A stretch of 64,000 nucleotides of DNA from Polaribacter sp. HaHaR_3_91 (lineage in GTDB: Bacteria; Bacteroidota; Bacteroidia; Flavobacteriales; Flavobacteriaceae): contig NZ_CP058986.1 of NCBI RefSeq assembly GCF_019278525.1, positions 2,080,001-2,144,000 on the forward strand, in the 5' to 3' direction. The translations under genes and the position numbers were made by a program. Below, piece by piece: positions 35,078 to 53,741 of this stretch (the first letter of the stretch is position 1; every line of letters begins with the position of its first letter). The notes beneath the pieces are model-generated. The model did not search any database. It was given only the letters and a program-made list of their open reading frames with translations, and had not been told where the DNA came from.

Positions 35078-35977
35078 TTAAGAATACAAGATTAAAAATA
35101 CCCCAAGTAAAATTCCGAATAAAGGAACCAATTTTTTACGCTTATTTTTTTCCTTAAATAACAATCCACCAACTACAACGGCAATTATAATCTGACTTCT
35201 TTTTATAGCCGATAATAACATAATTAAAGCATCAGGGTCTTGTAGTGCTTTAAAATAAAAGTAATCTGCTGTTTGTAATAAAACTCCAACAGCTGGTATA
35301 GACCATCTAAACTTAAAAGCTTTTCTTTTATCAGCATAAGGAAACCATGTAATTGATAAAATAATTAACAATATTAGAATGGTATAAAAGCAAAACCAAA
35401 ATTGTAATGTTTGAGGGTTTAAAGTTAAAGTCTGAATTAAAAATTTATCATACAAGCCACTAGAAGCACCTAAAAAGGTAGCTGCGATAATGGCAAAAAT
35501 CCATTTATTTCTTTTAAAATTGATACCCTCCTTTTTACCAATTTTAGAATATAATAGAACTGAAAGAATAATCAGAAAAAAACCAACCCATTGTAATGAA
35601 TTTGGTTTTTCATTATAAATAAAGATAGCACCTATAAATGTAAAAAAGGGACCTGCAGAGCGAATTGGAGTTACTATGGTAATTGGTAAATGCTTTAATG
35701 CTTGATATGCCAAAACCCAGGAAGCTGCCATTATCATCGATTTTATAAAAATAAATCCGTGCGTACTCCAAGGAATGCTTGTAATGTAGAAACCTATTTT
35801 TTGCATATAATCGGGATTCCAAATAGATCCTAAATAGAAGGGTAGTATCAATAGAAAACCAGCAGAAATTGTTCCAAACAAAACAGGAAATACTTCATTG
35901 CCTTGTACAGCATGTTTTTTACATAAATTATGTAATCCTAAAAATAAAGCCGCTAAAAGTCCTAAATACATCCACAT
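35078..35977 (-). CDS. EamA/DMT family transporter
   Basis: The 299-residue protein has about ten hydrophobic segments in two homologous halves, the drug/metabolite transporter layout, with the EamA motif TPIRSAGPFFTFIGAIFIYNEKP near residue 102 ending the first half and FKEKNKRKKLVPLFGILLGV ending the second. Transport substrate is unknown; members export amino acids, metabolites or drugs. It ends 61 bp from the polyol operon but points the other way, so a link to polyol use is only positional. Confidence 0.85.
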   Translation of the reverse strand: MWMYLGLLAALFLGLHNLCKKHAVQGNEVFPVLFGTISAGFLLILPFYLGSIWNPDYMQKIGFYITSIPWSTHGFIFIKSMIMAASWVLAYQALKHLPITIVTPIRSAGPFFTFIGAIFIYNEKPNSLQWVGFFLIILSVLLYSKIGKKEGINFKRNKWIFAIIAATFLGASSGLYDKFLIQTLTLNPQTLQFWFCFYTILILLIILSITWFPYADKRKAFKFRWSIPAVGVLLQTADYFYFKALQDPDALIMLLSAIKRSQIIIAVVVGGLLFKEKNKRKKLVPLFGILLGVFLILYS

Positions 35978-36438: not shown

Positions 36439-37905
36439 TTGAAAGAAACTAAAACACTACCGCTATTTTCAACTTACGAACTAGATTCTAGATTTTATGA
36501 TGAACTACTTAAGGATAATAATGAAGTTAGGGAGGTGTATAAAACCTTATATAATTTATTTGGTTCTTACTCAGTATCAGAATTTGATCGTTTAAATAAA
36601 CAAGCAAAAGATTCTTTTTTTAATCTAGGAATTACGTTTCAAGTTTATGGAGATAAGGAGGTAAAAGAAAAAATTTTCCCTTTTGATTTATTTCCAAGAA
36701 TTATTAATAATAAAGAATGGACTACAATAGAGAAAGGTGTTTTACAAAGAAGTAAAGCTTTAAACCTTTTTCTTTGGGATGTGTATCATGATCAAAAAAT
36801 TATAAAACAAGGTATTGTACCTGAAGATTTAATTAAGTCTTCTGTTAATTTTTTACCAGAAATGATAGGATTAGATCCTCCTGGAGGCATTTATAACCAT
36901 ATTTCGGGTACAGATTTAATAAAACATGCTGATGGCAAGTATTATGTTCTAGAAGATAATATTAGATGTCCTTCTGGTGTTAGTTATGTTATTGGCAACA
37001 GAAATGCTGTAAAGCATGCATTGTTTGGTGTTTTTAATCAATATAATGCACACACGGTTGTAGATTATGGTTCTAAGTTATTAGATACTATGGAATCTGT
37101 AAAACCAAATGGGGTAGATGCTCCTGTTTGTGTTATAATTACACCTGGGGTTTATAATTCTGCTTATTACGAACATTCATTTCTTGCAAAACAAATGGGA
37201 GTTGTTTTAGTGGAAGGAAGAGATTTATTTGTAGAAAATGGTTTTGTGTATATGAGAACCATTTATGGACCAGAAAAAGTAGATGTTATATACAGAAGAG
37301 TAGATGATTTATTTATAGATCCTTTAGTCTTTAAAAAAGATTCTATGTTAGGGGTTCCTGGTTTATTTTCTGTGTATCAAAAAGGAAATGTTACTTTGGT
37401 AAATGCTCCTGGTACAGGTGTGGCAGATGACAAAGCTGTGTATACTTATATGCCAGAAATTATTAAATATTATTTAGATGAAGAACCGATTCTAAATAAC
37501 GTACATACCTATCATTGTAGTAGAAAAGATGAGTTAAAATATGTTATAGAAAACATAGATAAATTGGTTGTAAAGCCAGTGGATGAATCTGGAGGATATG
37601 GTATTTCTATTGGAAGTAAACTAACAAAAGAAGAAATAGAAACTGTTAAGAAAACAATTTTGGCAGCACCTAGAAAATATATTGCTCAACCTATAATGTC
37701 ATTATCTACTCACCCAACGTATATAGATGAAAATGAGTCTTTCGAATCTAGACATGTAGATTTAAGAACGTTTACTCTATTAGGTAAAGATACCGATTTT
37801 GTATTAAAAGGAGGTTTGTCTAGAGTTGCACTTAAAAAAGGAAATTTAATAGTAAATTCATCTCAAGGTGGAGGGTCAAAAGACACTTGGGTTTTAAAAA
37901 AATAA
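36439..37905 (+). CDS. Circularly permuted type 2 ATP-grasp protein
   Basis: The 488-residue protein belongs to the DUF404/DUF407 circularly permuted ATP-grasp group. GLDPPGGIYNHISGTDLI (144-161), VLEDNIRCPSGVSYV (170-184), the VVKPVDESGGYGI nucleotide loop near residue 380 and FESRHVDLRTF with GGSKDTW near the end are intact. ATP-grasp enzymes form amide bonds through acyl-phosphates; comparative genomics has predicted peptide synthesis or modification for this group. Translation starts at TTG 36439, since a stop (36433-36435) is just upstream and no nearby ATG exists. It is followed after 6 bp by an alpha-E gene. Confidence 0.88.
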   Translation: MKETKTLPLFSTYELDSRFYDELLKDNNEVREVYKTLYNLFGSYSVSEFDRLNKQAKDSFFNLGITFQVYGDKEVKEKIFPFDLFPRIINNKEWTTIEKGVLQRSKALNLFLWDVYHDQKIIKQGIVPEDLIKSSVNFLPEMIGLDPPGGIYNHISGTDLIKHADGKYYVLEDNIRCPSGVSYVIGNRNAVKHALFGVFNQYNAHTVVDYGSKLLDTMESVKPNGVDAPVCVIITPGVYNSAYYEHSFLAKQMGVVLVEGRDLFVENGFVYMRTIYGPEKVDVIYRRVDDLFIDPLVFKKDSMLGVPGLFSVYQKGNVTLVNAPGTGVADDKAVYTYMPEIIKYYLDEEPILNNVHTYHCSRKDELKYVIENIDKLVVKPVDESGGYGISIGSKLTKEEIETVKKTILAAPRKYIAQPIMSLSTHPTYIDENESFESRHVDLRTFTLLGKDTDFVLKGGLSRVALKKGNLIVNSSQGGGSKDTWVLKK

Positions 37906-37911
37906 AAAAAT

Positions 37912-38925
37912 ATGTTAGCAAGAGTAGCCAATAACCTTTTTTGGATGGGAAGATATATTGAACGTTCAGAGCACTTAGCAAGGTTTTTAAACGTAAATTA
38001 TTTTTCATCTTTAGACGCACCAGATGAATTATCACAATCTAGACAATTTGTATTAAGATCTGTAATGTACATGTCTGCTAATGAAATTATAGACGCAGAT
38101 ATTACATTAGAAGAAGAAGCTGTTTTATTTAATGTTGGTCTAAATTTAGAGCAACCCTATTCAATTGTAAATACTTTTATTAATGCGCATGAAAATGCAA
38201 GAAGCTCTAGAGATTTAATTTCAACAGAATTATTTGAATGTATCAATAGAATTAACCATAGTTATAAAGGATATCCGATAGATAAATTTGTAAAAAGTGG
38301 CTTATACGAATTTACTTCAATGGTAACCCAATCTGCTTCTGAGGTAAGAAGTAAAATTAAAAGTACGCTTTTGCATGATGAAGTGTATGCTATAATTATG
38401 TTAGGTGTATATTTAGAAAGAGCAATACAAGTATCAAGAATTATTAATTCTAAATTAAGTGATGTTGCGGCAGCTAAAGAAATTTATGGAGATGTTATTG
38501 ATGGTAGTTACCAGTGGTCTACGCTTTTAAAATGTGTATCTACACATGATATGATGCGTAGTTTTTATAAAAAAACGCCTTCTAGAAAAACTACATTAGA
38601 GTTTATTATTTTAAACGGAAAATGTCCAAGATCTATTAAAAATTGTTTGTATCAAATATACAAATACATCTGTATTATTTCTAAAAACAGACAAATCACA
38701 GATGATTCGGCAGCTTTTTTGATAGGTAAAATGAAAGCTGATTTTGAGTATAAACTGATAACAGATATTGAAGATAATATAGAAGAGTTTATTGCCGATT
38801 TAATTGAGCATTTAGTTTTAATTGCTGATAAGTTGGAAGATAATTATTTCAATATTTCTGATTGTACAATAAAACCAGATGTTAAAGTTACTACTGAAGT
38901 TAAAAAGCAAACTCAAAAGCAATAA
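37912..38925 (+). CDS. Alpha-E domain protein (DUF403)
   Basis: The 337-residue all-helical protein begins MLARVANNLFWMGRYIERSEHLAR, the hallmark of alpha-E domains; YLERAIQVSRII near residue 165 repeats the pattern and PRSIKNCLYQI follows. Alpha-E proteins almost always accompany circularly permuted ATP-grasp genes, as here with a 6-bp gap. They have no known activity and may be a scaffold or partner of the ligase. The poorly conserved tail after about residue 325 is rich in Lys and Thr. It forms a two-gene operon with the ATP-grasp gene. Confidence 0.88.
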   Translation: MLARVANNLFWMGRYIERSEHLARFLNVNYFSSLDAPDELSQSRQFVLRSVMYMSANEIIDADITLEEEAVLFNVGLNLEQPYSIVNTFINAHENARSSRDLISTELFECINRINHSYKGYPIDKFVKSGLYEFTSMVTQSASEVRSKIKSTLLHDEVYAIIMLGVYLERAIQVSRIINSKLSDVAAAKEIYGDVIDGSYQWSTLLKCVSTHDMMRSFYKKTPSRKTTLEFIILNGKCPRSIKNCLYQIYKYICIISKNRQITDDSAAFLIGKMKADFEYKLITDIEDNIEEFIADLIEHLVLIADKLEDNYFNISDCTIKPDVKVTTEVKKQTQKQ

Positions 38926-38973
38926 AATTTAACGTAAAAATAATTGTCTTATTAAACGATTATTTTAAAAAAT

Positions 38974-39010
38974 AATAAACCTCAAAGTTTTTAAAACTTT
39001 GAGGTTTATT
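38974..39010. terminator. Bidirectional terminator between the two ATP-grasp operons
   Basis: Arms at 38974-38991 and 38993-39010 are perfect 18-nt complements that form a long hairpin with a tight loop of Ts and As. A and T runs at the stem ends suit termination on both strands. It lies between convergent operons. Confidence 0.88.
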
Positions 39011-39035
39011 GTTTCACCTTATTTTCTTTAAAAGT

Positions 39036-39950
39036 TTAAGACTGACTTTGGCTTTGATAATTTTTGGCAGGTCTTAAATCTACGGCCACATCCATTTTAC
39101 TTTTACCTGTACTGTAAATAACTCCTTTTAATGGTGGTACATCATAATAATCTCTACCATGAGCAACAACAATATGTTGATTTTTTGGGATTTGGTTGTT
39201 GGTTGGGTCAAAATCTATCCAACCTAGGGTTGGGATAAATACAGAAAACCATGCATGAGAAGCATCTGTACCAATCAGCTTTTCTTTTCCTTCTGGTGGT
39301 AGTGTTTCTATATAGCCGCTTACATATCTTGCAGGCAATCCCATAGACCTTACACAAGCAATGGCTATTTGAGCAAAATCTTGACAAACACCTTTTTTCT
39401 CTTTCATTACTACTTTTAATGGTGTTGCAATGTTTGTAAATCCAGAAACGAAGTCGAAATCTGTAAAAATACGTTGCATTAATTCGTAAGAAGCTTCATA
39501 TAAAGATCTTTCTGGTTTAAAGGAAACCAATGCGTATTCTTTAATAACAGTACTCATATCAGAAATTAAAGGAGAACCTAAAACAAATTGTCTAGCTTCA
39601 ATAATGTCTGGCTGGGTTTCTTTTAATAATTTAATTGCTTCTTCTATGGTAACTTTTTTTCCTTCAGTTAAATTTTGTCCTTCTATTTGTAAATCATAAT
39701 CTCTAGAAACTTTACTACGTGCTATAACAACCAGTTCTTCGTGACTTTGTTGAATTGAAAAACGAGTAACTGTATTGCCAAAAAAATCGAGTCTTTCTGA
39801 AATATCAGTAGGTTCTGGGCTAATTTCTAAAGCGTATTCTAATACATTCTGCCCTTTAAAACTTTTAGGTTTTAAGGTGGTTATATTATGACAAAAGGAA
39901 GCACCGTTTTCATAACTATATTTTGTTTTGTGCCAAAGGTCAAAAATCAT
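39036..39950 (-). CDS. Transglutaminase-like cysteine protease-fold protein
   Basis: The 304-residue protein has the bacterial transglutaminase N-terminal domain (residues 1-90, KPKSFKGQNVLEYAL) and the transglutaminase core. The catalytic triad is visible: Cys189 in KKGVCQDFA, His232 in DASHAW and Asp248 in IDFDPTNN. Proteins of this family act as peptidases or amide transferases. It is the last gene of the minus-strand operon, separated by 1 bp from the fused ATP-grasp/alpha-E gene, so they are clearly co-expressed. Confidence 0.92.
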   Translation of the reverse strand: MIFDLWHKTKYSYENGASFCHNITTLKPKSFKGQNVLEYALEISPEPTDISERLDFFGNTVTRFSIQQSHEELVVIARSKVSRDYDLQIEGQNLTEGKKVTIEEAIKLLKETQPDIIEARQFVLGSPLISDMSTVIKEYALVSFKPERSLYEASYELMQRIFTDFDFVSGFTNIATPLKVVMKEKKGVCQDFAQIAIACVRSMGLPARYVSGYIETLPPEGKEKLIGTDASHAWFSVFIPTLGWIDFDPTNNQIPKNQHIVVAHGRDYYDVPPLKGVIYSTGKSKMDVAVDLRPAKNYQSQSQS

Positions 39951-39951
39951 A

Positions 39952-42522
39952 TTAATTAGAAATTTTTCTATCTACCAACTGTTTTTGTTGCTGAGAGTGG
40001 TTAAAGTAAGTATCTGAAACAGATAAAGATGTTAAGTGTAATAAATCACTCAAATCAGACAGTAAATTGTCTAACTTTTTACGCATATTAGATGTTTCAT
40101 CAATTTCTAGAATTTCTTCTAGTGATAAACTTTCAATTTTATGAATTACCGTATTGATGTTTTTTTGACAAATAGTCATTTCTACAGATGTATTTGTATT
40201 CGGTAACTTATCAATATCTTTCTTAATCCTTTTTACTTGGTACATTAAAGATCTAGAGTATTCTTTATCTAAAACTAATAACTTTAAGACGTTTTCTATA
40301 CTTAGATAAGACTTGTAACTGTATCTATAGATGTTTAAACTTTCGTGACTATTTAAAAGTGATTCTAAAACTTCATACTCTAATTCCTCATTATAATTTA
40401 CAATAATTAAAGACCTAAATTTCTCTATAGTCATAGATGCTTGTTCTATTTGCAAACCAATAAAGTAGAGTAGAAGTCCTTGTCTTACTAATATACTTTC
40501 TTCTGACAAAGCCATAAAAGCAATCAATCTTGTAATTATTTTATCAAAGAACTTAGATAAAGTAGAAATAGTGTAAACCTTTTCTTCTTTAAGTTTTGTA
40601 AGTTGTTTCTGAATTCCATCAAAAACACGCCACATATCTTTAGACCATAGATTTCTGAGAGAATAATAAGAATTGTTAAAACTCTGCATAGATTGAGCAA
40701 AACCTCCAATTCTTTGATTATCTAGAGTAAGCGACTTTAATTCTTTAAGAGGATTCTTTAATGCTTCTTCTTCATTTTCTCCTGTAAAACCAGGAAACGT
40801 AGAAGTAATGTTTGTAATAGACTGAAATAATATTTTTAAACTTTCAGATTCAGATTTTCTTTCATCATTATATTGTACATGGGTCATTTGGTTTAAAACC
40901 ATGCGTAAATACCTTGCTGTAAATAAAGTTCTCCCCAAGTATCTACCAGACCAATATAGGTTTTCGGCGGTATTACTTGGTACGTCATTAATACTTTCTG
41001 CCTGATTAGAAACGCTCTTATTCCAAGAATAGTTTTGTAAGTAATTTTGTTTTTTATCACTAACAATCCAAAAATCTTTACTAGTTCCTCCTCGCTGATT
41101 AGACACAAAAAGTTCTTCACGTTCTGTGGCAACTCTGACTAAGCCACCAGGCATAACGCTATAACTATCTTGTTTTGCAATAGAAAAAGTTCTGCACACA
41201 ATTTTACGAGGTTCTAATTTATCATCAATAAAATTAGGAGCTGTAGAAAAAGATATTTTTTCTTGTGCTACAAATCTATTTGGGTTTTCTAAAATTTCAG
41301 CTTTTAGTTCCTTTAATTCTTCTTTACTTAAAAACTCACAGAAATAGATATGTTCTCTATGCGATCTGTCTATTCTTTTTACTACATAAGATGGTAAGTC
41401 TTCTAGAACATGTTTTCTCTCTTTTTCTTGTCCGCACCACCAAGAAGCAATTTGAGGTAGAATTAACTTTTCTTTTAAGAAAAATTTGCAAATATTCTCC
41501 ATAAACGGAATTAAAGCAGGGTTTTCTAAAACACCACTTCCAATAGGGTTTACGATGGCAACATTTTGTAAGCGAACAACTTCTAATAAACCTGCAACTC
41601 CTAAATAAGAATCTTCTCTTAATTCTAAAGGATCCATAAAGCTGTCATCTACACGTCGTAAAATAACATCTACTTGTTTTAAACCTTTTAAAGATTTTAG
41701 CCAAACTTTGCCATGTCTTACTACTAAATCATTTCCTTTTACCAAAGGATGACCTAAAAATGAAGACAAATAAGAATGTTCGAAATATGTTTCATTATGT
41801 GGACCAGGTGTTAAAATAACCACCATTGGGTTCTCTTTATTAGCCGGAGCTACACTTAATAACAATTTATTAAAATCATTAAAAAAGGTAGATGGCTGCC
41901 TAACGTTTATATGCTTATATATTTCAGGAATAATTTTAGTTGTAGAAAATCTATTTTCTAAAGCATATCCCATACCAGAAGGTGCTTGTGTTCTGTCATT
42001 TACAACCCACATACGTCCGTCCGGACCTCTAGCTAAATCTACTGCATGTACCAGTAATTGTTTTGCTGTTTTATATTCAATTTGATCACAAGAACGTAAA
42101 AAACCACGATGTGCGTAAATTACTTCTGGCGGAATAATTCCGTTTTTAAGCAATTCACGTTTTCCGTATAAATCTTTTAAAATAAGGTTTAATACTTCAG
42201 ATCTTTGTTGAATTCCCTTTTCAATTTCGCTCCATTCTTTTTGATGAATTATAAACGGAACTACGTTTAAATTCCAAGGTCTATTTAATCCTTTAGGATC
42301 GTTATATACATTATAGGTAACACCATTTTCTGCCAATAACCAATCTATATCAACTTGTTTAGAAGCTAATTTTTTAGGTCCAATTTTTTGTAAATTGTCT
42401 AATAAAACTTTCCAATCTGATGTGTCTTCCATTTTAGAGATTAATAGTTCATCATATTTACTTTTATTTAAAAAATAATCGTGTAAGATTGTTTTTTCAA
42501 TTTGATTTTCTTCTATCGTCAT
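39952..42522 (-). CDS. Fused circularly permuted ATP-grasp and alpha-E protein
   Basis: In this 856-residue fusion, residues 1 to about 500 form the ATP-grasp part and about 513-850 the alpha-E part, which starts VPSNTAENLYWSGRYLGRTL. It parallels the separate plus-strand pair. In the ATP-grasp part, VVNDRTQAPSGMGYALENR (173-191) replaces VLEDNIRCPSG of the other paralogue. The nucleotide-loop segment YVVKRIDRSHREHIYF (379-394) keeps Val-Lys but lacks the GGYG loop, so this may be a distinct subfamily or a non-canonical site. SNQRGGTSKDFW (474-485) is retained. Neighbours are transglutaminase genes at 1 bp and 27 bp. Confidence 0.9.
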   Translation of the reverse strand: MTIEENQIEKTILHDYFLNKSKYDELLISKMEDTSDWKVLLDNLQKIGPKKLASKQVDIDWLLAENGVTYNVYNDPKGLNRPWNLNVVPFIIHQKEWSEIEKGIQQRSEVLNLILKDLYGKRELLKNGIIPPEVIYAHRGFLRSCDQIEYKTAKQLLVHAVDLARGPDGRMWVVNDRTQAPSGMGYALENRFSTTKIIPEIYKHINVRQPSTFFNDFNKLLLSVAPANKENPMVVILTPGPHNETYFEHSYLSSFLGHPLVKGNDLVVRHGKVWLKSLKGLKQVDVILRRVDDSFMDPLELREDSYLGVAGLLEVVRLQNVAIVNPIGSGVLENPALIPFMENICKFFLKEKLILPQIASWWCGQEKERKHVLEDLPSYVVKRIDRSHREHIYFCEFLSKEELKELKAEILENPNRFVAQEKISFSTAPNFIDDKLEPRKIVCRTFSIAKQDSYSVMPGGLVRVATEREELFVSNQRGGTSKDFWIVSDKKQNYLQNYSWNKSVSNQAESINDVPSNTAENLYWSGRYLGRTLFTARYLRMVLNQMTHVQYNDERKSESESLKILFQSITNITSTFPGFTGENEEEALKNPLKELKSLTLDNQRIGGFAQSMQSFNNSYYSLRNLWSKDMWRVFDGIQKQLTKLKEEKVYTISTLSKFFDKIITRLIAFMALSEESILVRQGLLLYFIGLQIEQASMTIEKFRSLIIVNYNEELEYEVLESLLNSHESLNIYRYSYKSYLSIENVLKLLVLDKEYSRSLMYQVKRIKKDIDKLPNTNTSVEMTICQKNINTVIHKIESLSLEEILEIDETSNMRKKLDNLLSDLSDLLHLTSLSVSDTYFNHSQQQKQLVDRKISN

Positions 42523-42549
42523 ATTTCATGCTACCTATAATAAATTTCC

Positions 42550-45500
42550 CTACTTTTTTCTTAAATCTAAGGTATAAGGAAATTCAAAATTAACAGGTAA
42601 TTCTTTAAACTTAAATCGCTTAGAACTACTGTTGGTTTCTACACTTCTACTAGTGCTTTCTGTATTTGGGTTGATACTTTCCACAGGGTCAATTTCACCT
42701 TGTGTATGTCCAAATTCCCAGAAACGATTAATTCGTCTCGATTCTGCTTCATAGCTATTTACTGGATATTCATCATAAGATCTTCCTCCTGGATGTGCAA
42801 CAAAATAAGTACAACCTCCAATAGAACGTTTGTTCCAAGTATCTACAATATCAAAAACAAGTGGAGTATCTACTGGAATTGTTGGGTGTAAAGCAGAAAA
42901 CGGATCCCATGCTTTATAACGAACACCAGCTACATATTCTCCATGAACACTTGTCTTGTTTAATTGTACTTTAACGCCGTTACAACTTAATACAAAACGG
43001 TCTTCATTAAAATTAGAAACTTTTACTTGTAATCTTTCTAATGAAGAATCTACATATCTTGCAGTTCCGCCACCAGTCATTTCTTCTCCTAAAACATTCC
43101 AAGGTTCAATACCTGCTCTTAATTCTAAATGAATATTATTAATGTCTACCATCCCATGTAATGGGAATCTAAATTCGAAAAATGGATCGAACCAATCTTC
43201 TTTAAATTCGTAACCTGCTTTATTTAATTGGTCTACAATATCTTTAATATCTTCTCTTACGTAATGTTCTATTAAGAATTTATCGTGTAATTCTGTTCCC
43301 CAACGCACTAAATTATGTTCGTAAGGTTTTTTCCAGAACCAAGCAACTAAAGTTCTAACAAGTAACATTTGTACTAAACTCATTTTAGGGTGTGGAGGCA
43401 TATCAAATCCACGTAATTCTAAAATACCTAATCTTCCTGTAGAAGAATCTGGAGAGTATAATTTATCGATACAAAATTCTGCTCTGTGTGTATTTCCCGT
43501 TAAATCGGTTAATAAATGTCTAAACAATCTATCTGTTAACCAAAAAGGCACTTCGCCATCTTTTGGAATTTGATTAAAGGCAATTTCTAACTCGTATAAG
43601 TTGTCTAAACGAGCTTCATCTACTCTTGGAGCCTGACTCGTTGGACCAACAAATGAGCCAGAAAATAAATACGTTAAACCTGGGTGATGTTGCCAGAAAG
43701 TTAATAAACTTCTTAGTAAGCTTGGTTTACGTAATAAAGGACTATCTGCAGGAGTTGTACCACCTAAAGTTACATGATTTCCACCACCAGTTCCGGTATG
43801 TTTACCATCTAACATAAACTTCTCTGTACCTAATCTTGCTTTTTTAGCTTCATCATAGAAAGTAAATGTGTTTTTACACAAGTCTTTCCAATTAGTAACA
43901 GGATGTACATTTACTTCAATAACCGCAGGATCTGGTGTTATTTTTAGAGATTCTAATCTGTTATCATGTGGTGGTTCATAACCTTCCATTATAACAGGTA
44001 CGTTTAACTCTCTTGCCGTAAGTTCTATAGAAGCTATTAAATCTAAAAACATTTCTGCCGTTTCTAAAGGTGGTAGAAATAAATATAATTTTTGGTCTCT
44101 AATTTCGGCACAAAGTGCGGTACGTACAAAATAGTTAGGTTGGTTTAATTCTAATCCGAAGTCTAAAAATTCTTGATGTCTTTTTTTAACAATATTTTTA
44201 AAACTTGGTAAACGTTTCTTTTTAGAAAATAAGTCTGGTTCATGAATTGGGAAAATCTCGTGTTCTGGTTTTTCCATTAATGAATCTAAAGGTAGTCTTA
44301 ATCCCATAGGAGAGTTTCCTGGAGTTAAAAAGATGTGTTGTCTTCTAAAAGTCCAAGCACTACTAAACCATTTGTCTTCCGTTTTATTTAAAGGAAGTAA
44401 ATAGCCAACAGGTGTAGATGCGCCTTTTTCATAAATTTCATGTAATTTTTTACGTGCTAAAGAGCCGTCTTTGTCTTTTGCAGGATCTATGTCTATCGGT
44501 AAATTACCTTGTTCCCATAAATGATAAAAAGGATCTTCGAAACTTGGTAAAATATGTTCTGCAGAAACACGTAAATATTTAGTAAGCGTTTCTAAAAATA
44601 ATTTATCAGAATTTTCTGGAACAATAGGATTATCAGCATAGCTGGATAAATATTTTTTGTTGAACCAAATCGGTCTACCATCTTTACGCCAACAAATTTC
44701 TATTTGCCATCTTGGTAAAGGTTCTCCAGGATACCATTTTCCTTGTGCATGATGCAAAACAGCTCCATTACCAAATTTATCATACAAACCTTTGGTTAAA
44801 TCTCCTGCTAATTTTCTTTTATTAGGACCATCTGCAGTTGTATTCCATTCTGGAGACTCTAAATCATCAATAGATATAAAGGTTGGTTCGCCTCCCATTG
44901 TTAAACGAACATCGCCTTTTTCTAATTGCTTTTCTACTTTATTCCCAAGCTTGTATACTTCTTTCCATTGTTCTTCTGTATACGGTTTTGTAACTCTTGG
45001 AGATTCTAAAATTCTTGTTACTTTGTTTTCAAAAAAGAATTCTGTTTCACATTTATCAGACATTCCAGAAACAGGGGCAGCACTTTCAAAAGAAGGAGTA
45101 CACGCTAACGGAATATGACCTTCACTTGCTAGAAGACCAGAAGTGGCATCAAAACCAATCCAACCAGCACCCGGTAAATATACTTCTGCCCAAGCATGTA
45201 AATCTGTAAAATCTTCTTCAGGACCAGAAGGACCGTCTAATGATTTTTCGTCTGATTTTAATTGTACTAAATACCCAGAAACAAAACGTGCTCCAAAACC
45301 TAAGTGACGTAAAGTTTGTACAAATAACCATGCATAATCTCTACAAGAACCATTTTTTTGATTCAAAGTTTCTTCACAAGTTTGAACACCTGGGTCCATT
45401 CTTATGTTATAATTTAAAAACTCATAAATTTTTTGATTGATATCAATTAAAAAATAAATAGTTTTTCTTGGCGTATAATCTATCGTTTTTATAAACTCTT

Positions 45501-45882
45501 CTAATAACTTTCCTTTATCAGTAATTTCTAAATAAGGTTGTAATTCTTTCTTTACAGTTTCTGTATACACAAAAGGATATTCTTCTGCATACTCTTCAAT
45601 AAAGAAATCAAAAGGGTTTATAGTTTTTAAATCGGCAATAATTTCAACATCAATAGACATTTCATCTGTTTTCTCAGGAAAAACCAAACGAGCCACATAA
45701 TTTCCAAAAGGATCTTGTTGCCAATTAAAGAATTGTTCTTCTGGCGTAATTTTAATAGAATAAGATTCTATAGGTGTTCTCGAGTGTGGTGCTGGTCTTA
45801 GCCTAAAAATATGAGGAGATAAAGATACTTTTCTATCATATTTATAAGTTGTCTTGTGAGATATTACGATTTTTAATGCCAT
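42550..45882 (-). CDS. Transglutaminase-DUF2126 putative amidoligase fusion
   Basis: The 1110-residue protein is the first gene of the minus-strand operon. Residues 1-280 form a transglutaminase-like unit with Cys180 in KNGSCRDYAW, His229 in FTDLHAW and Asp245 in GFDATSG. From about residue 300 to the end is DUF2126, described in Pfam as a putative amidoligase of the glutamine-synthetase-like group; VRLTMGGEPTFISIDD, LDGKHTGTGGGNHVTLGG and LELRGFDMPPHPKMSLVQ are characteristic. ATP-dependent amide formation plus a transglutaminase activity in one chain suggests peptide making or capping. Substrate is unknown. A 27-bp gap precedes the next gene. Confidence 0.92.
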   Translation of the reverse strand: MALKIVISHKTTYKYDRKVSLSPHIFRLRPAPHSRTPIESYSIKITPEEQFFNWQQDPFGNYVARLVFPEKTDEMSIDVEIIADLKTINPFDFFIEEYAEEYPFVYTETVKKELQPYLEITDKGKLLEEFIKTIDYTPRKTIYFLIDINQKIYEFLNYNIRMDPGVQTCEETLNQKNGSCRDYAWLFVQTLRHLGFGARFVSGYLVQLKSDEKSLDGPSGPEEDFTDLHAWAEVYLPGAGWIGFDATSGLLASEGHIPLACTPSFESAAPVSGMSDKCETEFFFENKVTRILESPRVTKPYTEEQWKEVYKLGNKVEKQLEKGDVRLTMGGEPTFISIDDLESPEWNTTADGPNKRKLAGDLTKGLYDKFGNGAVLHHAQGKWYPGEPLPRWQIEICWRKDGRPIWFNKKYLSSYADNPIVPENSDKLFLETLTKYLRVSAEHILPSFEDPFYHLWEQGNLPIDIDPAKDKDGSLARKKLHEIYEKGASTPVGYLLPLNKTEDKWFSSAWTFRRQHIFLTPGNSPMGLRLPLDSLMEKPEHEIFPIHEPDLFSKKKRLPSFKNIVKKRHQEFLDFGLELNQPNYFVRTALCAEIRDQKLYLFLPPLETAEMFLDLIASIELTARELNVPVIMEGYEPPHDNRLESLKITPDPAVIEVNVHPVTNWKDLCKNTFTFYDEAKKARLGTEKFMLDGKHTGTGGGNHVTLGGTTPADSPLLRKPSLLRSLLTFWQHHPGLTYLFSGSFVGPTSQAPRVDEARLDNLYELEIAFNQIPKDGEVPFWLTDRLFRHLLTDLTGNTHRAEFCIDKLYSPDSSTGRLGILELRGFDMPPHPKMSLVQMLLVRTLVAWFWKKPYEHNLVRWGTELHDKFLIEHYVREDIKDIVDQLNKAGYEFKEDWFDPFFEFRFPLHGMVDINNIHLELRAGIEPWNVLGEEMTGGGTARYVDSSLERLQVKVSNFNEDRFVLSCNGVKVQLNKTSVHGEYVAGVRYKAWDPFSALHPTIPVDTPLVFDIVDTWNKRSIGGCTYFVAHPGGRSYDEYPVNSYEAESRRINRFWEFGHTQGEIDPVESINPNTESTSRSVETNSSSKRFKFKELPVNFEFPYTLDLRKK

Positions 45883-46393: not shown

Positions 46394-46798
46394 ATGAATA
46401 TTTCACATATAGAGCATTTAGGTATTGCCGTTGAAAATTTAGAAGTTTCAATAAAATATTACGAAGAAGTTTTAGGTTTAAAATGTTATTCTATAGAAGA
46501 GGTTGTCGATCAGAAAGTGAAGACAGCCTTTTTTTTGGTGGGTAACACAAAAATAGAATTATTAGAGAGTACTTCTCCGGATGGTCCAATAGGTAAATTT
46601 ATAGAGAAAAAGGGACAAGGTATTCATCATATTGCCTTTGCTGTCCCCAATGCAACAGAAGCTTTAAAAACTGCTGAAGAACGAGGGGTTAGACTTGTAG
46701 ATAAGGTTTCTAGAAAAGGTGCTGAAGGGTTAAATATTGGCTTCTTACATCCAAAATCAACATTAGGAGTGCTTACAGAACTTTGTTCTAAAGAATAA
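46394..46798 (+). CDS. mce: Methylmalonyl-CoA epimerase
   Basis: The enzyme interconverts (R)- and (S)-methylmalonyl-CoA, linking the mutase to the decarboxylase. The 134-residue vicinal-oxygen-chelate protein has the metal ligands His in [13 protein letters not shown] near the start, His in [12 protein letters not shown] near residue 75 and Glu near the end in [19 protein letters not shown] is typical, as is the length. It is the first gene of the methylmalonyl-CoA operon and precedes the carboxyltransferase subunit by 26 bp. Confidence 0.95.
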
Positions 46799-46824
46799 TT
46801 TTAAAAGAAAATACTTATATAAAA

Positions 46825-48384
46825 ATGGCAAATCAAGATAAAATTAACGAACTCATTGAAAAGAGAGCGGAAGCGAAAATGGGTGGTGGAGAAAAACGTA
46901 TCGATTCTCAGCATGCTAAAGGTAAATTAACTGCACGCGAGCGTATAGATATTCTTTTAGACGATGATAGTTTTGAAGAGTTTGATATGTTTGTAACACA
47001 CAGAACAAAATCTTTTGGATTGGATAAACAAATTTATCTTTCTGATGGTGTTGTTACAGGTCATGGTACTATAGACGGAAGAATTGTGTATGTGTTTGCA
47101 CAAGATTTTACCGTTTTCGGAGGTTCTTTATCTGAAACTTATGCATTAAAAATATGTAAAGTGATGGATATGGCAATGAAAATTGGAGTTCCCGTAATTG
47201 GATTAAATGATTCTGGTGGAGCACGTATTCAAGAAGGGGTAAGGTCTTTAGCTGGATATGCAGAAATTTTTCAAAGAAATATTATGGCTTCTGGTGTAAT
47301 TCCTCAAATTTCCTCAATTTTAGGTCCTTGTGCTGGTGGTGCTGTGTATTCTCCGGCATTAACAGATTTTACAATTATGACGGATCAAACAAGTTATATG
47401 TTTGTTACAGGTCCTAAAGTGGTAAAAACCGTAACAGGTGAAGTTGTAACTGCAGAAGAATTAGGTGGCGCTAAAATTCACTCTACTAGATCTGGCGTTT
47501 CTCATTTCTTAGCAGAAAATGATGAAGAAAACTTATTATTAGTTCGTAAATTATTAAGTTACTTGCCATCAAATAATTTAGAAGAAGCACCAATACTTCC
47601 TTGTAATGACCCAATTGACAGGTTAGAAGATGCTTTAAATGATATTATTCCAGAAAATCCAAATCAACCTTATGACATTGTAGATGTAATATCAATACTT
47701 GCAGATAATGGCGAGTTTACGGAAGTTCATAGAAATTATGCAAGAAATATTTGTGTTGGTTTTGCTAGATTTAATGGACGTCCAGTTGGTATTGTTGCCA
47801 ATCAACCAAAATATTATGCAGGTGTTTTAGATATTGATGCTTCTAGAAAAGCTGCTCGATTTGTTCGTTTTTGTGATGCTTTTAATATAGCTATTGTAAC
47901 CTTAGTTGATGTACCAGGTTTCTTGCCAGGAACAGGTCAAGAATATGGCGGAATTATTTTACATGGAGCAAAATTACTATTTGCCTATGGTGAAGCAACT
48001 GTGCCAAAAGTAACGATTACTTTACGTAAATCTTATGGAGGTGCACATGATGTTATGAGTTGTAAGCAACTACGTGGAGATGTAAATTATGCATGGCCAA
48101 CGGCAGAAATTGCAGTAATGGGAGCAAAAGGAGCTGTTGAAGTTTTAGAAGGATCTAATATTAGAAAAATAGAAGATGCAGATGAAAAGCAAGAGTACAT
48201 TCAGAAAAAAGAGGATGAGTACACTGCAAGGTTCGCAAATCCATACATGGCAGCAAAATACGGTTTTATAGACGATGTAATTGAGCCAAGAAATACTCGT
48301 TTTAGAATTATTAGAGCTTTAGAATTACTTCAGAATAAAAAAGATGTAAATCCCCCAAAGAAACACTCAAACATTCCATTATAA
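46825..48384 (+). CDS. mmdA: Methylmalonyl-CoA decarboxylase alpha subunit, carboxyltransferase
   Basis: The 519-residue protein is an acyl-CoA carboxyltransferase. It has [10 protein letters not shown], the acyl-CoA oxyanion segment [17 protein letters not shown] near residue 127, [14 protein letters not shown] near 172, and [25 protein letters not shown] near 366. Alone this could be propionyl-CoA carboxylase, but the next three genes encode the delta, biotin and beta subunits of a Na+-pumping decarboxylase and no biotin carboxylase is present. It would move CO2 from methylmalonyl-CoA to biotin. Its stop overlaps the next gene's ATG. Confidence 0.94.
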
Positions 48385-48743
48385 TGACAAATATACTATT
48401 ATACACAGATCCAATAAGCGAAGGTTATGTTATTCTAATTACCGGGTTATTCATTGTTTTTAGCGCATTAGTTATACTCGCACTTTTCTTTAATTACGGA
48501 TTACCAGTATTGCTTTATACCTATAAAATAATTACAAAAGGGAAGGATAAGAAAATTAGTGAAATTAAAGTAAAAGGAGATAGCAATTTTACTGGTGAAA
48601 TTTCTGCGGTTATTGGAGCTGCCGTACACATGTACAAAAATGAACAACATGATCATGAAAGTGCAATTTTAACAATTAAACAAGTTAAAAAAACATATTC
48701 ACCTTGGAGTTCTAAAATTTACGGAATTCAAAATAGATTATAA
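48384..48743 (+). CDS. Decarboxylase delta/OadG-like membrane subunit
   Basis: The 119-residue protein has one membrane segment (about 13-38, VILITGLFIVFSALVILALFF) and a soluble tail, the plan of OadG and MmdD, which assemble and stabilise Na+-translocating decarboxylases. Beyond the topology, the tail is little conserved, so family assignment comes mostly from gene order: ATG overlaps the mmdA stop and the biotin protein begins 3 bp after it. Confidence 0.82.
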   Translation: MTNILLYTDPISEGYVILITGLFIVFSALVILALFFNYGLPVLLYTYKIITKGKDKKISEIKVKGDSNFTGEISAVIGAAVHMYKNEQHDHESAILTIKQVKKTYSPWSSKIYGIQNRL

Positions 48744-48746
48744 CAA

Positions 48747-49166
48747 ATGAAAAGCTATAAATTTAAAGTAAACGAAAACGGCTACACCGTTAATATAAAA
48801 TCTCATGAAGATAATATTATTCAATTAGAAGTTAATGGTACATCCTATGAGGTAAAAATGCAAGAGGAGGTTAAAAAAACAAAGACTCCTACATTAATTA
48901 GATCTGCGTCTAAACAACCAGCTGCACCTTTACAAGTAAATCCAAAATCTGCAAAAACAAGAATTGTTGCTCCTATTCCTGGAGTCGTTTTGTCTATTGA
49001 TGTAAAAGTTGGAGATACACTAAAGGTAGGGGATAGAATGCTTGTTTTAGAAGCAATGAAAATGGAAAATAGTATTGTCTGTGAAAAAGCAGGTGTTATT
49101 TCCGATATAAAAATAAGTGTAGGACAACAAGTTTTGCATGATGAATTAATGATAGAACTAGAATAA
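48747..49166 (+). CDS. Biotin carrier subunit of the decarboxylase
   Basis: The 139-residue protein ends in a biotinyl domain (about 72-139) with the biotin motif LEAMKMENS, in which Lys105 carries biotin. A Pro- and Ala-containing linker of about 40-70 residues separates it from an N-terminal strand region. It shuttles carboxyl groups from the alpha subunit to the membrane beta subunit. Spacing of 3 bp and 10 bp to its neighbours places it in the operon. Confidence 0.94.
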   Translation: MKSYKFKVNENGYTVNIKSHEDNIIQLEVNGTSYEVKMQEEVKKTKTPTLIRSASKQPAAPLQVNPKSAKTRIVAPIPGVVLSIDVKVGDTLKVGDRMLVLEAMKMENSIVCEKAGVISDIKISVGQQVLHDELMIELE

Positions 49167-49176
49167 AACACTAAAT

Positions 49177-50511
49177 ATGAAAAAAGTAATTTTAATATTC
49201 TGTGTTTTATCTTTATTGATCTTTATAAGACCAGTTTTAGGATTAAGCGCAGATGCTAGCCCAGATTCCATAACCGATACTACGGTTGTTACAACACAAG
49301 TAGATAAAGCTCCTCAAAAAGATGTGGGTGTTTTTGAAGGAGGTTTTGAAGGAATTAAAAAGTTTTACAGTTATACCGGTTTTGCAAATACAACTTCTGG
49401 AAACTTAATAATGATTATCATCGGAATTGGATTCATTTACCTAGGTATTAAGTTTGATTACGAACCCTTACTATTGATACCAATTGGTACCGGTGTTATA
49501 TTAGGAAATATACCTTTTGTAGCCGGAAATCAAACAGGTATTTATGAGACAGGATCTGTATTAAACTATCTCTATTTTGGAGTGGTAAAAGGTATTTATC
49601 CGCCGCTAATTTTTTTAGGAATTGGAGCAATGACAGATTTTTCATCTTTAATTGCAAATCCCAAATTAATGCTTTTAGGAGCAGCAGCTCAAATTGGTGT
49701 GTTTGCAACTTTTATGGGAGCGCTTTATCTAGGATTCAGCCTTCCAGAAGCAGGTGCAATCGGTATTATTGGTGGAGCCGATGGACCAACTGCAATTTTC
49801 TTATCATCAAAATTAGCAAACGGAGTTAATATTTTGGCAGATGGTACAACGGTTAAAAACTTAATTGGACCTATTGCTATTGCTGCTTATTCTTACATGG
49901 CATTGGTTCCTGTAATTCAGCCTCCATTAATGAGATTGTTAATCTCTAAAGAGGATAGAAAAATAAAAATGAAACCACCAAGAGCCGTTACTCAAAAGGA
50001 AAAAATGATTTTCCCTGTAGTTGCTTTATTATTAACTCTTTTTATCTCTCCTAGTGCATTACCATTATTAGGGATGTTATTCTTCGGAAATTTATTAAAA
50101 GAGTCAGGAAGAACAGAAAGATTAGCAGATACGGCAAGAACCAAATTAATTGATATTGTAACTATTTTATTAGGTGTTACAGTAGGAGCTTCTACGCAAG
50201 CAGATATTTTTATCACTAAAGATTCATTATTGATATTTGGTTTAGGAGCAATCTCATTTGTGATTGCAACTTGTGGAGGTTTATTATTCGCTAGATTTAT
50301 GAATAGATTCTTAAAAGGAGATAATAAAATTAATCCGCTTATTGGTGCTGCAGGAGTTTCTGCTGTTCCAGATAGTGCACGTGTTGTGCATCACGAAGGT
50401 TTAAAATCAGATCCAAGTAACTATTTATTAATGCATGCAATGGCGCCAAATGTTGCAGGTGTAATAGGTTCTGCAATTGCTGCAGGTATTATTTTAAGTT
50501 TCTTAGGATAA
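49177..50511 (+). CDS. Na+-translocating decarboxylase beta subunit, OadB/MmdB family
   Basis: The 444-residue integral membrane protein decarboxylates carboxybiotin and pumps Na+ out. The OadB-family signatures are IGIIGGADGPTAIFLSSKLA near residue 192, whose Asp is essential for Na+ transport, and LIGAAGVSAVPDSARVVHHEG near residue 388. An N-terminal extension of about 60 residues precedes the conserved part; its first 22 residues are hydrophobic and may form a signal peptide. About nine further membrane segments follow. It completes the four-subunit pump. Confidence 0.95.
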   Translation: MKKVILIFCVLSLLIFIRPVLGLSADASPDSITDTTVVTTQVDKAPQKDVGVFEGGFEGIKKFYSYTGFANTTSGNLIMIIIGIGFIYLGIKFDYEPLLLIPIGTGVILGNIPFVAGNQTGIYETGSVLNYLYFGVVKGIYPPLIFLGIGAMTDFSSLIANPKLMLLGAAAQIGVFATFMGALYLGFSLPEAGAIGIIGGADGPTAIFLSSKLANGVNILADGTTVKNLIGPIAIAAYSYMALVPVIQPPLMRLLISKEDRKIKMKPPRAVTQKEKMIFPVVALLLTLFISPSALPLLGMLFFGNLLKESGRTERLADTARTKLIDIVTILLGVTVGASTQADIFITKDSLLIFGLGAISFVIATCGGLLFARFMNRFLKGDNKINPLIGAAGVSAVPDSARVVHHEGLKSDPSNYLLMHAMAPNVAGVIGSAIAAGIILSFLG

Positions 50512-50577
50512 AGGATAATTATAAGTTCATTTTAGTGTGTGAATGAACAAAAACAACAATTTTTAAAATTTGATAAT

Positions 50578-51864
50578 ATGAAAATACCAAATAAAATGAC
50601 AGCCGATGAAGCTGTTAAATTAATCAAATCTAACGATAGAGTTTTAATCCAAGGAGGTTCTGCAACACCACAAGCTTTAATAAAAGCGATGGTTGCAAGA
50701 GCGTCAGAATTAAGAAATGTTGAACTTGTTCATTTACATACCGAGGGAGCTTGTGGATATACTGCACCAGAATTAAGAGAAAGTTTTCATACCAATGCTT
50801 TTTTTATTGGTGGAAACGTTCGTAAAATGGTAGGAAACACGGTAGATTATATTCCTGTTTTTTTAAGTGAAATACCAAGTTTATTTCGTGAAGGATATAT
50901 GAAGTTGGACGTGGTTCTGGTAAATGTATCGCCACCGGATAAACATGGTTTTTGTTCTTTAGGTGTTTCTGTTGATATTGTTATTTCTGGTATAGAACAA
51001 GGTAAAATAATTATTGCTCAAATTAACCCGCGCATGCCTCGTACATTTGGAGATGCTCAAATTCATTTAAAACATTTTGATGCCTGTGTTGAAGTAGAAG
51101 AAGAAATCTACGAAATGAATTTTGTAGAACCATCTGAAATAGAGAAATCTATAGGTAAAAATATTGCAGAAATTATTGATGATGGTGCAACGCTTCAAAT
51201 GGGGATTGGTGGTATTCCAAATGCCGTTTTAACATTTTTAAACAACCATAAAAATTTAGGGATACATACAGAGATGTTTTCTGAAGGTGTCATAGATTTA
51301 GTGAGAAACGGAGTTGTAAACGGTTCTAAAAAGAAAACAAACCCTTATAAAATTGTTTCTGGTTTTGCTATGGGAACAAGACGTTTATATGACTTTATAG
51401 ATGATAATCCAGAAATTGAAATGAATGACATTGCATACGTAAATGATACTTCTATCATTCGTAAAAACCCAAAAGTAACAGCAATAAATTCTGCTATTGA
51501 AGTAGATTTAACAGGTCAAATTTGTGCAGATTCTATTGGTCAGAGAATGTTTTCTGGAGTTGGTGGTCAAATGGACTTTATGCGTGGAGCTGCTTTATCA
51601 AAAGGTGGGAAACCAATATGTGCAATTACATCAACAACCTCTAAAGGTGTTTCTAAGATTACTCCAGCGTTAAAAGTAGGAGCAGGAGTTGTTACCACCC
51701 GTGCGCATGCTAGGTTTATAGCTACAGAATATGGGATAGCAGAACTATTTGGTAAAAATTTAAAACAACGAGCTCAAGCATTAAGAGATATTGCGCACCC
51801 AAATCATAGAGAGGAATTGGACAAAGCTATATTTGAAAGATTTGGAAGTAGTTTAATGATATAA
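50578..51864 (+). CDS. Acetyl-CoA hydrolase/transferase family CoA-transferase
   Basis: The protein transfers CoA between short acyl groups, for example propionyl-CoA plus succinate, but also possibly acetate or 4-hydroxybutyrate. It has IQGGSATPQALIKAMVARA near the start, FSLGVSVD-like SPPDKHGFCSLGVSVD, MGIGGIPNAVLTFL, LGIHTEMFSEGVIDL (Glu in the active-site region) and GVVTTRAHARFIATEYG. At about 428 residues it resembles 4-hydroxybutyrate/butyrate CoA-transferases in size more than the 500-residue ScpC. ATG 50578 is preferred to GTG 50539, which adds 13 poorly conserved residues. Context suggests the propionyl/succinyl exchange. Confidence 0.88.
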   Translation: MKIPNKMTADEAVKLIKSNDRVLIQGGSATPQALIKAMVARASELRNVELVHLHTEGACGYTAPELRESFHTNAFFIGGNVRKMVGNTVDYIPVFLSEIPSLFREGYMKLDVVLVNVSPPDKHGFCSLGVSVDIVISGIEQGKIIIAQINPRMPRTFGDAQIHLKHFDACVEVEEEIYEMNFVEPSEIEKSIGKNIAEIIDDGATLQMGIGGIPNAVLTFLNNHKNLGIHTEMFSEGVIDLVRNGVVNGSKKKTNPYKIVSGFAMGTRRLYDFIDDNPEIEMNDIAYVNDTSIIRKNPKVTAINSAIEVDLTGQICADSIGQRMFSGVGGQMDFMRGAALSKGGKPICAITSTTSKGVSKITPALKVGAGVVTTRAHARFIATEYGIAELFGKNLKQRAQALRDIAHPNHREELDKAIFERFGSSLMI

Positions 51865-51941
51865 TAAACTTACGGAAGGTAGGGTTTAAATTTTGTAACT
51901 TTAAGAACTGTAACCTTTTGTATTAAATAAATTCACATATA

Positions 51942-53741
51942 ATGAGCGATAAAAATAAAATACTTTTTTCAGATTTCTCTTCAGTTTCTACTGAACAGTG
52001 GATGGAAAGAGTGACCGCAGATTTAAAAGGTGCTGATTTTGATAGAAAACTAGTGTGGAAAAACCTAACTGGTATCAATTTTCAGCCTTGTTATAATATA
52101 GAAAATTCAATTACACAGCTAAAAAATAAAGGAGAAAACTCACAATCATTAGTAAACTATAGAAGTGTTGCTGCTTGTTGTGGTAAATCTGGAAATGATT
52201 TGGCCTTAAAAGCAATTGAAGAAGGAATAAATGGTATTATTTTTCAAATGATAACCAATGTATCTGTAGAAGAACTTTTAAATGGAATAGACTTAAATAC
52301 TATCTCGGTTTCGTTTAAATTATTTAATAATTCTATTCCTTTTACCAAAGATTTAGTTGCTTTTGCAAAAGGCAAAAATTTAAAGGGATATATTGATGCA
52401 AATTTAATTTCTGGCTATGTAACAACAGGTAGTTTTAATGAAAACCTTGTAGATGTAACAGCAGAACTGATAAAGTTAACAAAAGATTTTCCTAACTTTA
52501 AAGCAATCACTATTTCTGGAACGGAGTATTTAGATAATGGAGCAAACCAAGTGCAAGAAATAGCATATACTTTAAGTTCTCTCGTTTTTTTAACGGAAAA
52601 ATTGAAAGAAAAAGAGATTGCAGTGCAACAAATTTTCGACAACCTAAATTTTAATTTAGCAATTGGATTAGAGTATTTTGTTGAAATTGGAAAATTTAGA
52701 GCATTCAATAATTTATTAGCTGAGGTAGCTGCCAAATATCAACTTGCTGATTTCTCGAATACGATAACGGCTAAAACTTCTATTTGGAGTAAGTCAATTA
52801 CAGATGCAGAAACCAACTTATTACGTTGTACTACAGAAGCTATGGCTGCTATTTTAGGAAATGTAGACGGAGTTTTAATTGATCCTTATGACAAAGAATT
52901 TAAAAGTTCTTCTGATTTTTCAAGCAGAATAGCAGGTAATATTACCACTATTTTAAAAGAAGAATCTTATTTTGGTAAAGTATCAAACCCTGTTGATGGA
53001 TCTTATTATATTGAAGAGGTTAGTTCTAAAATAGCAGAAAAAGCATTAGAGTTGTTTAAAGCAATTGAAGCTGATGGTGGTTTTTATATCAATTTTGAAA
53101 AAGAAATAATTCAACAACAAATTGCTGAAATTCGTCTTCAAAAATTAAAATTAATTAGCCAACGTAGAACTCCAATGGTTGGAATTAACAAGTATCCTAA
53201 CTTAATGGAGAAAATATCTGCTAATCTACTTTCTAAAGGAATTAGTGAGAATCCGAAGGTATTAACTCCAAGAAGAGCTTCTTTAGAAATTGAGGCAATG
53301 CGTAGGGTTACAGAAGAATTAGTGGATGAAACAAATGTGCGCCCAATTGTACAATTAGCGAGTTATGGAAATTTAACAATGCGTAAAGCGAGAGCTGCTT
53401 TTGCTTATGATTTTATAGGTGTAAGTGGTTTTGATGTGCATCAAGAAGAAAGTTTTGCAAACGCTTTGGTTGCAGCTACTGAAAGTGCTAAATCAACTTC
53501 AAATGTAGTTGTTATTTGTAGTTCTGATGAAGATTATGATGAAACTGCTGTAGAATTTGTAAAAGCATTTAGAGCCATAGATACAGATAAAGTATTGTTA
53601 CTAGCAGGTGCACCAAAAAACATTGATGAATTAACGGCTGTTGGTTTAGATGGTGTTGTAAATATGAGAACTGATGTTCTTGTCTCACTTTCTAGTATTC
53701 AGAAAAAAGTTCAAAAAACCTTTAAATCTTTAGAAGTATGA
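51942..53741 (+). CDS. mutA: Methylmalonyl-CoA mutase small subunit
   Basis: The 599-residue protein is the smaller, non-catalytic subunit of the heterodimeric mutase. Relationship to the large subunit is clear ([32 protein letters not shown] and GVNKYPN), but the cobalamin-binding DxHxxG motif is missing in its C-terminal domain. The reading frame ends with 4 bp of overlap (ATGA) with mutB, giving translational coupling. It is the classic MutA/MutB arrangement. Confidence 0.93.

Follow-up and report, generated by a model that had tools for sequence, protein, structure and literature searches.

A predicted amide ligase paired across genomes with an apparent pseudo-ATP-grasp protein in a Polaribacter transglutaminase, alpha-E and DUF2126 gene cluster

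In a 64,000-nucleotide stretch of the Polaribacter sp. HaHaR_3_91 genome (contig NZ_CP058986.1, positions 2,080,001 to 2,144,000; the window), five adjacent genes encode two circularly permuted ATP-grasp proteins, two transglutaminase-like (TG) proteins and a free alpha-helical alpha-E protein (alpha-E A). One ATP-grasp protein is free (A) and the other (B) is fused to a second alpha-E domain (alpha-E B); one TG protein stands alone (TG-s), and the other (TG-DUF2126) continues into a DUF2126 putative amidoligase. Judged by their residues, A and B are not equivalent, a difference missed by the original prediction, which was made from the letters of the window: A is predicted to be a working amide ligase, whereas B looks like a conserved pseudo-ATP-grasp. 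In the genomes examined, A and B go together at the level of the whole genome, even where their genes are not adjacent. As far as our literature searches go, both this separation of an active from a dead ATP-grasp and their pairing are new. We favour, at a probability of about 55%, the reading that the cluster serves amide conjugation under nitrogen stress, with A as the working ATP-grasp ligase, a second ligase resembling glutamine synthetase, two cysteine enzymes acting as amidases or transferases, and B as a dead ATP-grasp partner. Cited papers are used here through excerpts, and statements taken from them hold for those excerpts.

ATP-grasp A has a relative in 3n6x (E 3.3e-158). Residues D159, E172, N174, K379, D441 and N473 and the glycine loop GGYG (385-388) are kept in all 56 A relatives, each of which has the Glu-x-Asn pair and glycine-rich loop that we used to recognise an active ligase. 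The ATP-grasp part shares its fold with the ligase domain of glutathionylspermidine synthetase (GspS), and its fold relatives are amide ligases. A Yersinia relative of A frees phosphate from ATP, with ligation and hydrolysis indistinguishable to the authors (PMC6376114). The free alpha-E protein carries an ER motif (E17/R18) that is present in 62 of 62 relatives, and its AlphaFold model is helical (predicted local distance difference test score, pLDDT, 88.6).

B differs at just these ATP-grasp positions. The presumed Mg-binding Glu and Asn are found in 0 of the 96 B relatives with letters there, the Asn being replaced by Arg in 95; the GG-x-G loop is seen in 0 of 98, and the equivalents of D441 and N473 are likewise lost. 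The window protein has N175 and R177 at the presumed Mg site, HREH (388-391) at the glycine loop, V442 and S474. B thus lacks the active-ligase signature, and at the level of sequence its presumed Mg and nucleotide-phosphate residues are gone. The two ATP-grasp proteins of the original prediction are indeed present, one of them fused to alpha-E, but the view of both as candidate ligases is not supported.

B retains the ATP-grasp fold and many residues in common with A: Q417, R443, R462, K481 and D482 are shared in 98 of 98 relatives, the K379 position holds Lys in 93 and Arg in 5 of the 98, and Asp stands at the D159 position in 76 of 96. It is strongly conserved and under purifying selection. 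In its alpha-E domain the Arg of the ER motif is kept in 95 of 95 sequences and the Glu in 50 of the 95, the window protein having Gly. Given the loss of the presumed Mg and nucleotide-phosphate residues, B is most likely a non-catalytic partner. The phrases used to look for an inactive, degenerate or pseudo ATP-grasp did not occur in the literature searched; Iyer et al. 2009, reportedly the source of the predicted ATP-grasp, alpha-E and transglutaminase amidoligase systems with the proteasome-like protein Anbu, may yet speak of such copies. If confirmed, the pseudo-ATP-grasp would be a conserved, cross-phylum inactive partner within the ATP-grasp family.

When genome contigs were scanned with the B alignment, a wider set was obtained, of which we kept the best 80 loci. 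These come from Bacteroidota, Methylococcales, Sulfuricurvum/Sulfurimonas, Poribacteria, Verrucomicrobia, Anaerolineae and others. A free TG directly adjoins B in 79 of them; DUF2126 is near B in 66, A in 21 and Anbu in 16, several loci stopping at contig ends. The proteasome-fold domain PF00227 was checked on three example loci with Anbu, one of which fell just below the cut-off. There were 59 B loci without a nearby A, and from these we searched 32 genomes whole, picked for spread. Each of the 32 gave two matches and no more: an A-like frame of 438-512 aa away from B, and one B (829-899 aa, with one broken at 662). Since each of the 32 has one A and one B, we regard the two as paired genome-wide. 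Anbu-like matches were found in eight of the 32. One of the 32 (G610) is apparently identical to a genome (G267) of the Bacteroidota sample described next, the Anbu coordinates being the same.

Co-occurrence of the parts across genomes, the check named beforehand by the original prediction, was found: in a sample of 395 Bacteroidota genomes the parts nest within one another. Alpha-E was detected in 143 genomes, DUF2126 in 12 and Anbu in 25. Alpha-E is present in every one of the 12 DUF2126 genomes (4.3 expected) and of the 25 Anbu genomes (9.1 expected); the corresponding hypergeometric values ignore phylogeny, and shared descent could also give a nested pattern. The fused B frame (857-905 aa) occurs in at least nine of the 395 genomes among the matches listed, and these nine all have DUF2126. 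This co-occurrence supports the earlier claim of one linked ATP-grasp, alpha-E, TG-like and DUF2126 system. An 844-aa alpha-E frame in genome G204 was considered as an active ATP-grasp/alpha-E fusion and rejected: its first half is not ATP-grasp and a 497-codon frame overlaps it, so that we treated it as extended in the wrong frame and did not count it as a B. Family f32 (genera g86 and g91) includes many small genomes in which alpha-E matches strongly and DUF2126 is absent; a locus of this family (L044) has a transglutaminase together with A and alpha-E.

Anbu is an optional part of the system. It was found in 6 of the 12 DUF2126 genomes. In the genome of the window, a search with PF00227 gave no match while 10 of 14 control genomes were positive, and there was no match to an Anbu protein; Anbu is therefore absent from this genome as well as from the cluster, as predicted. 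This absence is not special, since only 25 of the 143 alpha-E genomes have Anbu.

The five open reading frames were found exactly where the original prediction had placed them (window 36439-45882), all of them intact and in two convergent groups (Table 1). The predicted gene set is confirmed by Pfam, with every domain of the five proteins exceeding its curated cut-off; NCBIfam gave no match for any of the five at E 0.01. On the plus strand, A is followed by alpha-E A after a 6-base gap. On the minus strand the order of transcription is TG-DUF2126, the B fusion and then TG-s, and both operons run into a common hairpin.

Table 1. The five genes and the shared hairpin, in window positions
Feature	Positions	Strand	Description
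ATP-grasp A, free circularly permuted ATP-grasp, TTG start	36439..37905	+	488 aa; CP_ATPgrasp_2/_1; PF14403 526 bits, PF04174 465 bits
Alpha-E A, free alpha-helical protein	37912..38925	+	337 aa; PF04168 214 bits
Shared terminator-like hairpin, bidirectional	38970..39014	.	22-nt arms, 95% complementary; terminator-like on either strand
TG-s, stand-alone transglutaminase-like cysteine enzyme	39036..39950	-	304 aa; PF08379 (Bact_transglu_N) + PF01841 (Transglut_core)
ATP-grasp B + alpha-E B fusion, predicted pseudo-ATP-grasp	39952..42522	-	856 aa; PF14403 495 bits, PF04174 346 bits, PF04168
TG-DUF2126, transglutaminase-like domain + glutamine-synthetase-like putative amidoligase	42550..45882	-	1110 aa; PF08379, PF01841, PF09899 1261 bits

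Both TG-like proteins have the intact Cys-His-Asp that had been read from the sequence. In TG-s the triad is C189, H232 and D248, present in 137 of 137 aligned relatives (free TGs of 230-400 aa). In TG-DUF2126, the triad C180, H229 and D245, many acidic residues and N702-H703 are at least 98.5% conserved in 82 relatives, and the PF09899 match is full length. DUF2126-type proteins have been grouped with carboxylate-amine ligases and assigned to the superfamily of the Pup ligase PafA (PMC2588565). Purifying selection acts on all five genes, with ratios of nonsynonymous to synonymous substitution rates of 0.015-0.146 (19 comparisons, four near relatives).

The host is a Polaribacter-like flavobacterium with a 4.2-Mb genome, and the closest named alpha-E relative is found in Polaribacter sp. 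R2A056_3_33 (99% identity). DUF2126 occurs in 22 of 146 sampled genomes of the genus. We read 15 loci of the genus, the window included. All five genes are adjacent in 14 of them (13 complete, while in L021 the contig ends inside DUF2126), and therefore the grouping is not due to chance; in the fifteenth (L153) the contig ends after TG-DUF2126, B and TG. The convergent two-operon layout that was described for the window holds there, with its shared hairpin, but it is not constant: eight loci are convergent (the window, L014, L017, L018, L021, L150, L151 and L152) and six divergent (L013, L015, L016, L019, L020 and L149).

All five window proteins are nearer to those of Lacinutrix and Tamlana than to those of divergent-type genomes of their own genus (for B, 73-78% vs 61-64% identity), which suggests that the block was transferred between genera. 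Winogradskyella and genome G338 have a close add-on, the minus-strand group (B 76-77%), and a different core, the plus-strand pair (A only 54%); the two gene groups can thus be exchanged separately. The site of the window is without the cluster in three genomes (G029, G037 and G576), where an EamA-family transporter gene and a methylmalonyl-coenzyme A (CoA) epimerase gene flank the site. G576 carries a divergent-type cluster elsewhere. In the sister genome G037 (locus L146), an 89-codon stub of A with 90% identity remains at the same site and the remainder of the cluster is gone; the cluster was therefore lost there by deletion. The TTG start of A at 36439 and the bases just 5' of it are kept in this stub, and tblastn alignments of A with most genus relatives start from residue 1. 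In Maribacter litopenaei (L085), the DUF2126 and B genes each lie in two frames, through sequencing error or decay.

The original prediction had offered the cluster as the best candidate for an undescribed system, which goes too far: the cluster belongs to a type already on record as a prediction, the amidoligase, transglutaminase and alpha-E systems. Citing papers trace back to 2009 the prediction that this set of domains synthesises or modifies peptides (PMC3597751, PMC5666114), and an ATP-grasp member has already been assayed (PMC6376114). The term DUF2126 was not met among the matches listed in our literature search. Like the cluster, the predicted Anbu-type systems combine circularly permuted ATP-grasp, alpha-E and TG-like families as gene neighbours, DUF2126 proteins being predicted amidoligases (PMC3597751, PMC5666114, PMC6376114). 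Unlike them, our cluster is without Anbu, has a core and a DUF2126 add-on side by side, and includes a fused ATP-grasp without catalytic residues. A fusion of a TG-like domain to a carboxylate-amine/ammonia ligase domain is also found in another phylum, in Mycobacterium tuberculosis Rv2566 (PMC2588565). GspS and the peptidylpolyamine synthetases YgiC/YjfC share with A the ATP-grasp fold and the D..E.N motif; they differ in that GspS gives no hhalign sequence match, A is without Arg at the Arg-x-Asp position, and the cysteine enzyme of the cluster is TG-like.

Related operons respond to nitrogen limitation, and this makes a role in nitrogen shortage likely. Pseudomonas putida PP_2685-PP_2688 comprise Anbu-like, transglutaminase, hypothetical and circularly permuted ATP-grasp genes that are responsive to nitrogen limitation (PMC7801951, PMC8050072); this corresponds to the core with Anbu, and the excerpts mention no DUF2126 or fused ATP-grasp-alpha-E. 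In wild-type cells under nitrogen limitation PP_2686, PP_2687 and PP_2688 are up 12.6-, 11.0- and 14.7-fold and are assigned to NtrB/NtrC (PMC7801951, following the column order of its Table 1), and on nitrate vs ammonium PP_2685 and PP_2688 change by log2 4.44 and 3.99 (PMC8050072). In Burkholderia cenocepacia, I35_5080-5083 encode a DUF404/407 ATP-grasp, a DUF403 (alpha-E) protein, a TG-like and a large TG-like protein in one NtrC/sigma-54-dependent cluster, for which an ntrC mutant shows log2 values of -6.0 to -9.4; no fused ATP-grasp-alpha-E is named in the excerpts (PMC5491218). In marine metagenomes these domains are associated with urea-metabolism domains (PMC3597751).

For Polaribacter we infer the reaction, the kind of substrate, the partner role of B and the nitrogen role as follows. 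The core, A with alpha-E A, would be a working ATP-dependent ligase in which A, to judge from its fold, turns a carboxylate into an acyl phosphate and joins it to an amine. The add-on of TG-DUF2126, B fusion and free TG would bring a second ligase, of the glutamine-synthetase type, and a pair of cysteine enzymes that may cleave or transfer the amide, with B as a non-catalytic partner holding substrate or positioning A or DUF2126. Under nitrogen shortage the system would produce or recycle nitrogen compounds joined by amide bonds, such as peptide-amine conjugates. We favour amide conjugation and recycling because of the fold relatives, the phosphate release by the Yersinia protein, the DUF2126 superfamily and the nitrogen-responsive homologous operons. 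A bolder version, which we hold tentatively and at a little short of even odds, is that A and B form an obligate pair in a widespread two-ligase system, the dead paralogue, an old branch in several phyla, being the substrate-holding or activating subunit of a nitrogen-stress DUF2126 machine. If so, this would be the ATP-grasp counterpart of pseudokinase-kinase pairs. ATP-grasp, alpha-E and TG systems span several phyla, and the A/B split with optional Anbu tells which proteins to co-express, which residues to change and under which condition (nitrogen limitation).

Several points weigh against this amide-conjugation reading. The Arg of the Arg-x-Asp motif part is absent in A, with Gly157 in 56 of 56 relatives, and the structure model of B is weak (pLDDT 67.7). 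As hhalign of the A or B family against one E. coli GspS sequence gave no match, the D..E.N equivalence rests on spacing, the fold match and residue roles, those of GspS being roles that we presume. The roles for the structural relative Cp1B are from PMC12568646. Neither glutamate nor glutamine stimulated the release of phosphate by the Yersinia protein, which could be plain ATP hydrolysis; pull-downs with Yersinia Anbu as bait gave no specific interaction with other operon proteins (PMC6376114). Three of the 12 genomes with DUF2126, all of one family (f19), show no B and have A, alpha-E and Anbu beside TG-DUF2126; B is therefore not essential to DUF2126. The nitrogen evidence comes from Proteobacteria, where the P. 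putida Anbu gene PP_2685 is up only 1.12-fold in the wild type and PP_2686-PP_2688 are still induced in an rpoN mutant, contrary to a simple sigma-54 story (PMC7801951). The genome of the window encodes sigma-54, and a sigma-54 pattern scan of the window gave 24 sites vs a mean of 25.8 by chance, none of them upstream of either operon. No product of ATP-grasp, alpha-E and TG systems was found in the literature searched.

Other readings assign the same genes differently. If both ATP-grasps were active and formed successive amide bonds, B would need a re-wired metal or nucleotide site. The strong conservation of B, the purifying selection on it and the many residues that it shares with A speak for this, but no B with letters there keeps the Glu-x-Asn pair, GG-x-G, D441 and N473 are gone too, and losing the equivalent Cp1B residues abolishes or attenuates activity (PMC12568646); we consider this distinctly improbable. 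An anti-phage or conflict system is a reading to which we give almost no weight. Patchy presence and likely exchange between genera fit a defence system, yet the sole PADLOC match (E 0.0098), in the helical part of B, does not place the cluster among the defence systems modelled there. Twenty other proteins of the window were scanned and none is clearly mobile or defensive, the one PglZ domain coming with a response-regulator receiver, and relatives of the cluster are nitrogen-regulated.

It has also been proposed for Anbu operons that the ligases attach a tag to proteins and that a peptidase removes it or degrades the target. This agrees with the presence of Anbu near 16 of the 80 B loci, its restriction to alpha-E genomes (25 of 25 in the 395) and the superfamily shared by DUF2126 and the Pup ligase PafA (PMC2588565). 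We think it unlikely nevertheless: no proteasome-fold gene was found in the genome of the window, a match to Anbu is missing from 118 of the 143 genomes with alpha-E, Anbu was without peptidase or amidase activity in the excerpts of PMC6376114, and those of PMC2588565 report no small Pup-like open reading frame beside the family. Improbable, too, is a biosynthetic role in which the cluster makes a peptide or pseudopeptide natural product for export. Cp1B makes pseudodipeptides (PMC12568646), the cluster is patchy in the genus and lost in a sister genome, and in 7 of 10 genus loci, drawn from two subgroups, an EamA-family transporter gene lies at most two genes from the cluster, at varying positions. 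However, this gene is retained at the site in the three genomes without the cluster there, and of the 80 B loci of the wider set only 4 have one nearby. Among neighbour families found in at least three loci (open reading frames below 70 aa left out), only Anbu adjoins system genes in several families; the other recurring neighbours identified are a TonB-type outer-membrane protein, a short-chain dehydrogenase, a flavin oxidoreductase, a response regulator and similar proteins. Amide conjugation under nitrogen stress remains the reading that we prefer.

Finally, some neighbouring genes may be mentioned. The EamA-family transporter gene of the window is at 35078-35977, and such a gene is likewise near the cluster in L013, L014, L017, L018, L020 and L021, by chance or as a linked exporter. 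On the other side the cluster adjoins a propionyl-/methylmalonyl-CoA gene set (46394-55870 and 56960-57973) consisting of epimerase, carboxyl transferase, biotin protein, OAD-beta-like decarboxylase, CoA transferase, two mutase subunits and MeaB. The methylmalonyl-CoA epimerase is found at 90% identity or more in 11 of the 146 genus genomes, and a second copy, 52% identical, lies elsewhere in the genome of the window. Two genes further off were also noted: the one at 12401-16294 encodes a protein of 1297 aa that carries a CHU_C type IX secretion signal, and the one at 18280-19848 a response regulator-PglZ protein, which we take to be PorX-like.

In the wider set, 12 Methylobacter-type loci (L091, L092, L100, L101, L104, L107-L111, L113 and L116) have a gene of 433-455 aa between TG-DUF2126 and B, a citrate synthase by Pfam in both cases tested (L092 and L109), and L102 has an enolase-superfamily gene at this place. 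A zinc-ribbon metallopeptidase (PF10005 and PF15887) stands beside the cluster in L022, L065, L066, L123, L133 and L137, Pfam-tested in all except L066, and could be a further accessory peptidase.

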